Assembly: GCA_014523665.1 (NCBI GenBank)
Contig: JAATVR010000306.1
Location: forward strand, 1 to 10,284
Length of the DNA stretch: 10,284 nucleotides
Reading direction: 5' to 3'
Origin: Nitrososphaerales archaeon TH526
GTDB lineage: Archaea; Thermoproteota; Nitrososphaeria; Nitrososphaerales; Nitrososphaeraceae
The translations under genes were made by a program, and so were the position numbers. Numbering within the stretch: position 1 is the stretch's first letter; each line of letters starts with the position of its first letter. This document shows positions 6,199-7,422 of the stretch, piece by piece. The notes beneath the pieces were generated by a model, which searched no databases, was not told where the DNA came from, and worked only from the letters and a program-made list of their open reading frames with translations.

Positions 6199-6397
6199 AA
6201 TTAAACTAAAGGTGTTGCGCGAAATGAATGATAGGGATCTTACAGAGAAACTCGATGAACTAACTTCTGAGCTGACGAAGTTGAAGTCTGAAGGTGCAAA
6301 AGGTACATTGAAGAAAGAAACAGCGAGTATCAGATGGACAAGAAGGGATATTGCGAGAATCAAGACGATACTAACAGAGAGGGTGGAAAACCATTGA
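6191..6397 (+). CDS. rpl29: 50S ribosomal protein L29 (uL29)
   Basis: uL29 is a small helical-hairpin protein near the exit-tunnel rim, next to uL23. The 68-residue product has the usual pattern: KLKVLREMNDRDLTEKLDEL, then a second helix with TASIRWTRRDIARIKTIL, matching the RRxIARxxT motif of the family. Its ATG overlaps the end of rps3 by eight bases in another frame, and the stop overlaps the TTG of the RNase P gene (TTGA). In many archaea a SUI1/eIF1 gene follows L29; it is not present here. Confidence 0.95.
   Translation: MGRIKLKVLREMNDRDLTEKLDELTSELTKLKSEGAKGTLKKETASIRWTRRDIARIKTILTERVENH
6381..6386 (+). promoter_or_regulatory. Ribosome binding site for rnp1
   Basis: The motif gggtgg (within agagggtgg) ends seven bases before the TTG at 6394. 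It favours that start over the in-frame ATG at 6334, which lies well inside rpl29. Confidence 0.5.
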
Positions 6398-6663: not shown

Positions 6664-6987
6664 ATGGTTAGAAATATAGGCGTTTCTGTTTCTCCTCCGC
6701 GGAGGTCATGTGAAGATATTAATTGTCCTTTCCATGGTAAACTCTCTGTTAGAGGTCGAGTTTTTACTGGCACTTTGGTTAGTGCAAAAGCTCGCAAGAT
6801 GGTTGTGGTTGAACATCAATATTCTAGACCGGTAACGAAATACAAAAGGTTTGAAAGAAGCAAATCAAAAATGCATGCGTATGCTCCTGATTGTATGGAT
6901 GTAGTTGAAGGCAAACGAGTGCGCATTGCAGAATGTCGGCCTTTGACTAAGACTGTTGCTTTTGTGGTGATCGAGGTGGAACAATAA
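6664..6987 (+). CDS. rps17: 30S ribosomal protein S17 (uS17)
   Basis: uS17 is an OB-fold protein that binds 16S rRNA early in small-subunit assembly. The archaeal CEDINCPFHGKLSVRG segment is at 16-31, with GRVFTGTLVSAKARKMVVVE next. The family signature is at 83-105 (GKRVRIAECRPLTKTVAFVV). At 107 residues the length is typical. The ATG lies three bases after the rnp1 stop; an ATG at 6657 is in another frame. The TAA stop at 6985-6987 is followed immediately, in the same frame, by the uL14 coding sequence, so only this stop separates the two proteins. A Shine-Dalgarno-like motif for uL14 lies inside the last codons. Confidence 0.97.
   Translation: MVRNIGVSVSPPRRSCEDINCPFHGKLSVRGRVFTGTLVSAKARKMVVVEHQYSRPVTKYKRFERSKSKMHAYAPDCMDVVEGKRVRIAECRPLTKTVAFVVIEVEQ
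6973..6979 (+). promoter_or_regulatory. Ribosome binding site for rpl14
   Basis: The motif gaggtgg, a strong match to the archaeal consensus, lies at the end of rps17 and nine bases before the ACG codon at 6988. The first ATG in the uL14 frame, at 7063, has no such motif nearby. The element supports initiation directly after the S17 stop. Confidence 0.7.
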
Positions 6988-7422
6988 ACGTCCTCTAAGT
7001 CAAGAGCCGTTTCAGCAAAAGGTGTAGAAGAATTCAGGCCTTATGTAACAAGAGCACTGCCTATGGCCGCCAGCTTAGTATGTGCAGACAACACCGGTGC
7101 TAAGATTCTTCGCATTGCTCAAGTAAAAAGATTCAAGGGACGACATTCCCGGTTACCGTCAGCTGCTGTGGGGGATTTTGTAACCGTGACCGTCAAGAAA
7201 GGTCCAGCGGAGTTAAGAAAACAGATTTTCGGCGCAGTAATAATAAGACAGAAATATCCTGTTAGAAGGCTTAATGGAAATAGATTAGTCTTTGAAGATA
7301 ATGCTGCTGTATTGGTCACTCCTGAGGGTGAAATCAAGGGAACAGACATAAAAGGGCCAGTAGCAGCGGAGGCAGCTGAAAAATGGCCGAGAATTGCAAA
7401 TTTGGCTTCACTAATAGTATGA
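6988..7422 (+). CDS. rpl14: 50S ribosomal protein L14 (uL14), probable ACG start
   Basis: uL14 is a beta-barrel protein at the subunit interface of the large subunit. The core is unmistakable: LVCADNTGAKILRIAQVKRF, VGDFVTVTVKKGPAELRKQ, FGAVIIRQKYPVRR and EGEIKGTDIKGPVAAEAAEKW. The first ATG (7063) would give 119 residues, but conserved archaeal N-terminal sequence (SKSRAVSAKGVEEFRPYVTRALP) is encoded upstream in the same frame, back to the S17 stop. No ATG, GTG or TTG occurs in those 25 codons. The most plausible start is ACG at 6988, giving 144 residues and (M)SSKSRAV, with gaggtgg nine bases upstream. A sequencing error or mutation of ATG to ACG is an alternative. The gene identity is sure; the start codon is inferred. 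The CTG at codon 24 is too late to cover the conserved region. Confidence 0.9.
   Translation, partial: TSSKSRAVSAKGVEEFRPYVTRALPMAASLVCADNTGAKILRIAQVKRFKGRHSRLPSAAVGDFVTVTVKKGPAELRKQIFGAVIIRQKYPVRRLNGNRLVFEDNAAVLVTPEGEIKGTDIKGPVAAEAAEKWPRIANLASLIV

Follow-up and report, generated by a model that had tools for sequence, protein, structure and literature searches.

A uL14 gene that probably begins at an ACG codon in a lineage of Nitrososphaeraceae

Our analysis suggests that the gene for ribosomal protein uL14 in this Nitrososphaeraceae lineage is probably translated from an ACG codon at position 6988 of the stretch of DNA under study (the window, 10,284 nucleotides), by near-cognate initiation aided by a Shine-Dalgarno-like motif and by reinitiation beside the stop codon with which uS17, just upstream, ends. 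The window, which carries an archaeal ribosomal protein operon, is the whole of one contig (C156) of a 4.9 Mb genome in 833 contigs. Its uL14 frame translates as TSSKSRAVSAKGVEEFRPYVTRALPMAAS, with the stop codon at 7420-7422 (Table 1), and the first in-frame ATG, GTG or TTG is the ATG at 7063. The preliminary description of this DNA had counted 25 codons ahead of that ATG, as the window sequence confirms, and had stated that these 75 bases contain no ATG, GTG or TTG. This is correct for the reading frame in the window's genome, but out of frame there are an ATG at 7043 and a GTG at 7022, and the in-frame absence does not extend to two related genomes, G004 and G001, both of which have a GTG at codon 13, with a TTG at codon 24 of G001 as well.

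Table 1. Features of the uS17-uL14 region in the window, and position of the carB insert in its loci.
Feature	Position	Strand	Remarks
uS17 gene	6664..6987	+	upstream of uL14 and in the same frame; open reading frame and comparison with relatives
GAGGTGG, Shine-Dalgarno-like motif	6973..6979	+	within the 3' end of uS17; identical in 5/5 genus genomes
uS17 stop codon TAA	6985..6987	+	abuts the putative uL14 start, 0-nt gap
ACG, putative uL14 start codon	6988..6990	+	ACG in G000, G001 and G004; ATG in G002 and G003
uL14 codons 2-25, translated N-terminal part	6991..7062	+	differences between ACG genomes all silent
ATG, codon 26	7063..7065	+	first in-frame ATG of the uL14 frame of the window
uL14 gene, 144 codons and stop	6988..7422	+	single match in the genome
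carB insert	L276, 1476-1521 (G000); L272, 380-425 (G004)		also in L273, L274, L275 and L277-L282

The start codon of uL14 among relatives

The window's genome (G000) was compared with four others of the same genus, G001, G002 (TH5895), G003 and G004 (TH5896). At the uS17/uL14 junction, G000, G001 and G004, which represent three species, read TAA-ACG, whereas G002 and G003 have TAG-ATG there in a gap-free alignment. The nucleotide identity is 85.7% between G000 and G004 (3618 aligned columns), 83.8% between G000 and G001 (3652 columns) and 95.8% between G001 and G004 (454 columns); the uL14 sequence of G001 is cut by the end of its contig. The ACG is thus carried by three species, which fall into two lineages well apart from each other. 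The preliminary description had pointed to an alignment of uL14 from close relatives, and in that alignment the ATG of G002 and G003 falls exactly at 6988. Its proposal that uL14 starts at ACG gains support from this ATG in sister species and from the two further species with ACG, with initiation at ACG itself predicted from sequence comparison.

The same picture emerges from a wider survey. A uL14 match was found in 60 of the 61 genomes searched, one in each except for two in G043, and none was found in G036. Among the 80 named loci listed (482 confirmed), the nearest start is ATG in 65, GTG in 9 and TTG in 5, and in 79 of the 80 a standard start lies 2-5 codons before a conserved lysine, the exception being L031 of TH5896. 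The ACG thus occupies the position of the relatives' standard start and has no standard in-frame start close by, the next one being codon 26 in the window and codon 13 in G001 and G004. The closest named relatives among the matches listed, from which the window's own record may be absent, are the Nitrososphaerales archaea TH5896 and TH5895, with their uL14 at L031 (JAATVP010000108.1) and L032, respectively. Passages of PMC7603488 name TH5896 and describe HiSeq reads of 171 samples, from which the TH5896 bin was presumably derived. The archaea that carry the ACG, and whose uL14 has lost its usual start codon, form a small group from soil and sediment. In the tree, the order of the three lineages of the genus carries 58% support, and the history of the ACG may have been one origin followed by reversal in G002 and G003, one origin in a clade of ACG genomes, or two origins.

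Two further observations concern this junction. The stop codon of uS17 covaries with the start of uL14, being TAA in the three ACG genomes and TAG in the two ATG genomes. Metagenomic uL14 clusters near-identical to this genus begin with VSSKSRAV (P0001; 23 sequences from 19 contigs) and with MSSKSRAV (P0002), which suggests that GTG and ATG stand at the ACG position in near relatives, and a turnover between GTG, ATG and ACG; the clustering of proteins at 90% identity conceals truncated uL14 records, for the full-form and the 119-residue query alike.

Translation of the N-terminal codons and choice of start

The preliminary description had recognised conserved uL14 N-terminal sequence ahead of ATG 7063, and these residues do align with those of relatives. 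Over codons 2-25 (72 bases), G000 differs from G001 at 7 positions and from G004 at 7, and G001 differs from G004 at 6, all of these differences being silent. When 7 uniform random changes were placed on the window sequence, all were silent in 6 of 100,000 trials. Between G000 and G004, dS is 0.49 in codons 2-25, 0.56 in the rest of uL14 and 0.80 in uS17, and dN in codons 2-25 is 0. These silent-only differences indicate that the stretch is translated and that the N-terminal part is real protein, and the extent of silent divergence between G000 and G004 means that the ACG has outlasted it. The pattern speaks for translation of the stretch, not for which codon comes first.

On the latter question, the codon positions at which each of the three ACG genomes is a single base away from ATG are 1 (ACG), 17 (AGG) and 24 (CTG, TTG and CTG), and only codon 1 both aligns with the ATG of the sister species and precedes the conserved residues. 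Since the GTG at codon 13 is confined to G001 and G004, and the TTG at codon 24 to G001, the ATG at codon 26 is the only standard start common to the three. The GAGGTGG motif, which we take to be complementary to the 3' end of 16S rRNA, lies 8 nt before the ACG (the 9 nt given previously hold when counted after GAGGTG). Its conservation is not independent proof, because it doubles as coding sequence for the C-terminus of uS17. Splicing as the source of a uL14 ATG was considered and ruled out, the junction having the same length as in the ATG species.

Initiation machinery and other genes

The anticodon arm GGGCTCATAACCC, which we take to be that of the initiator tRNA, is ordinary and occurs in each of the five genomes of the genus. 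No initiator tRNA with a CGU anticodon was encountered in G000-G004, where the pattern GGGNTCNTNACCC gave only CAT and CTT triplets; the reversed control matches about equally often, so that only the exact arm is informative, and a tRNA with another arm escapes this pattern. ARAGORN called no tRNA at the six loci with an initiator-like arm (L117-L121 and L137), perhaps because introns interrupt the initiator-like tRNA gene at unusual sites. The main aIF1 (102 residues) shows 1-3 residue differences per pair among G000, G002, G003 and G004, in a pattern independent of the ACG; it was not found in G001, which is 78% complete.

In 17 frames of the window, the two open reading frames at 829-2340 not being among them, alignment with those relatives whose sequence spans the frame showed an ACG start only in uL14. 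The start of uL6, read by eye, is ATG 9722, and the start of the frame at 6334 is uncertain because its ATG reads CTG in G002 and G003. A larger sample, in which about 0.81 Mb of G004 was paired with 0.47 Mb of G003, gave 176 non-overlapping pairs of open reading frames, some of which may be shadow frames (earlier pairings were dominated by antisense shadow frames). Of the 168 pairs tested, 122 have a common standard start that lies no later than the conserved part. A nearby standard start is lacking from both genomes in 23 pairs, is seen in G003 only in 11 and in G004 only in 5, and is present in both genomes but unshared in 7. In the G003-only class, the sole one itemised, ACG stands against ATG only in uL14. 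The other ten rows align TTA (twice), AAT, GCT, AGA, ACA, AAA, CTG, AAG and ATA; at least two of them (L167 and uL5) have an ATG slightly downstream, and those with CTG (L196), AAG (L178, a carB fragment) and ATA (L158) are likewise one base from ATG, in short or weak pairs. An ab initio scan of 81 G004 pieces (810,736 bases) for further genes that lack a start found a 5-base motif match in 58 of 509 open reading frames with a closed 5' end, with weak codon bias; its threshold of 15 codons would miss the uL14 of G004 itself, with its GTG at codon 13. Taken together, the ordinary initiator arm, an aIF1 that does not track the ACG and the lack of a second ATG-to-ACG row among the 11 of the G003-only class make the case look gene-specific within this sample and not a change of the code.

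A side observation concerns carB. Of 13 genomes examined, 11 (all five of the genus and 6 of 8 others) have an insert of 20-32 nt in this gene, always at the site flanked by GEAGE and FDYSGSQ; it is absent from G039 and G037 (L283, L284). The insert causes a frameshift in nine genomes and introduces a stop codon in frame in two, G038 and G040. Folds of short fragments show a 5'-side bulge of 3 nt in 11/11. The adjoining stem measures 4 bp in 9/11, 3 bp in G005 and 5 bp in G006, and consists of GGCG/CGCC or GGCG/CGUC, or of GGUG/CACC in G040; the second bulge was identified by eye. An 85-nt piece from G004 has a different best fold, not stabler than shuffles (z -0.99), with the bulge-helix-bulge-like stem in the centroid only. 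In G004, G007 and G040, read by eye, cleavage of each bulge behind its second base would join the exons exactly, a layout that is that of the archaeal bulge-helix-bulge intron. The insert is thus probably, judging from its sequence and predicted folds, a tiny mRNA intron of this archaeal type; no carB intron was found by title among the papers listed.

Explanations of the ACG and comparison with known systems

The genomic base at 6989 is C, and the start differs from that of the sister species in its middle base only, C here and T there, as would be expected if the transcript were edited from C to U and the ribosome saw AUG, as in some plant chloroplast genes. We consider this reading unlikely. 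We know of no mRNA C-to-U editing of such a kind in archaea, which counts against it, and the 11 G003-only rows among the 168 pairs hold no second ATG-to-ACG case, so that an editing system would serve few sites. In its favour, the initiator arm and aIF1 look ordinary, and passages of PMC9845219 state that chloroplast rpl2, psbL and ndhD gain their AUG in this way. C-to-U editing of an archaeal mRNA that supplies an essential gene for a ribosomal protein with its AUG would be a second invention of the plant-organelle trick, which is distinctly unlikely. That uL14 begins at ATG 7063, the 25 upstream codons being untranslated, is decidedly improbable. This ATG is kept at codon 26 in all five genus genomes, and bacterial uL14, to our knowledge, lacks most of the N-terminal stretch; against this stand the purely silent upstream changes, the conservation of the stretch in relatives, and the lack of any visible Shine-Dalgarno-like motif before 7063, on which the preliminary description was accurate. 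In addition, two archaeal uL14 chains align upstream of this ATG, from query residue 4 in 4v6u and from near residue 13 in 1s72 (132 aa), and the 119-residue form would be shorter than all 60 chains listed of the 108 matched (127-146 aa).

A start at another codon near the 5' end, whether AAG 6997, AGG 7036, CTG 7057 or the GTG at codon 13 of G001 and G004, is highly unlikely. Every candidate is one base from ATG, and codons 17 and 24 are near-cognate in the three ACG genomes, but the AAG is missing in G004, the window has GTA in place of the GTG, the stretch with purely silent differences includes codons 13, 17 and 24, and no candidate aligns with the relatives' start. Readthrough of the uS17 TAA into a uS17-uL14 fusion, perhaps cut afterwards, would draw on the two genes sharing one frame with no gap, but the ATG species have the identical layout and the two proteins sit in different ribosomal subunits, which leaves this reading with a minimal probability. 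The preliminary description had held a single-base change from ATG to be an equal alternative. One base would indeed suffice, but a sequencing or assembly error does not retain that standing and is very unlikely, to the point of being nearly negligible: the same ACG occurs in three separate species genomes, with 84-86% identity between the two lineages and differences at adjoining bases.

Initiation at the ACG, the reading we prefer, would proceed as follows. The uS17 and uL14 genes, on the same strand and 0 nt apart, form a candidate termination-reinitiation pair. Ribosomes ending uS17 at its TAA would remain on site, held by GAGGTGG, and would reinitiate on the adjoining ACG with the ordinary CAU initiator tRNA, with one mismatch at the middle codon position. 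A ribosome parked in this way, with its motif paired, would need less codon-anticodon fit, so that the middle-base mismatch could be tolerated, and the protein would begin with Met at residue 1. The use of the ACG, the feeding of it by reinitiation and the insertion of Met are all three what we infer. Passages of two studies report that archaeal reinitiation falls steeply with the stop-start distance and that a Shine-Dalgarno motif is often present (PMC6728339, PMC10666635). Other findings there count against our reading: the effect of the motif on reinitiation varies, its removal having raised reinitiation for rpl30/rpl15 (PMC6728339, PMC10666635), and in E. coli a 2-nt gap lowers reinitiation by 5, 20 and 70% in three pairs (PMC10666635). 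Non-canonical starts are very weak in E. coli, ATT giving about 0.3% of ATG (quoted in PMC10666635), which is a poor match with a stoichiometric ribosomal protein and so also counts against the ACG. The parts of a review that deal with archaeal initiation name AUG, GUG and UUG as start codons, and its main text contains no instance of 'ACG' (PMC7531240). No archaeal ACG start was found by title or abstract among the papers returned from the open-licence PMC literature, to which this statement applies.

If the ACG is the true start, an essential, stoichiometric ribosomal protein of a natural archaeal lineage relies on a codon regarded as a very poor start, and this reliance has been kept across two lineages despite much silent divergence. 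The gene would then show how far an adjacent stop codon and Shine-Dalgarno pairing can replace codon-anticodon fit, and would offer a naturally occurring system for testing how faithfully archaea select their starts (aIF1, aIF2). It would also call for caution, in that gene callers restricted to ATG, GTG and TTG can misplace starts. The ATG sister species share the motif and its spacing and offer a ready comparison for the ACG species.

The AUU start of bacterial infC is likewise a conserved odd start codon in an essential translation gene; infC autoregulates through IF3, and uL14 is likened to it by its start codon alone. The ACG starts of eukaryotes and their viruses depend on eukaryotic initiation and usually give minor products, whereas in uL14 the codon would begin an essential and abundant protein, behind a Shine-Dalgarno-like motif; cases in which ACG serves as a start are the Sendai virus P/C mRNA and mammalian cells (reference list of PMC9845219). 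Like uL14, the chloroplast genes rpl2, psbL and ndhD are conserved genes whose genomic start needs a C-to-U change to give AUG, but there editing makes the AUG, while uL14 is known here from genomic DNA alone (passages of PMC9845219). In layout there is a likeness to the archaeal termination-reinitiation pairs, in which stop and start adjoin on the same strand and the motif lies inside the upstream gene, as in uS17-uL14; the commonest known pairs have a 4- or 1-nt overlap and standard starts, whereas uS17-uL14 has a 0-nt gap and ACG (PMC6728339, PMC10666635).
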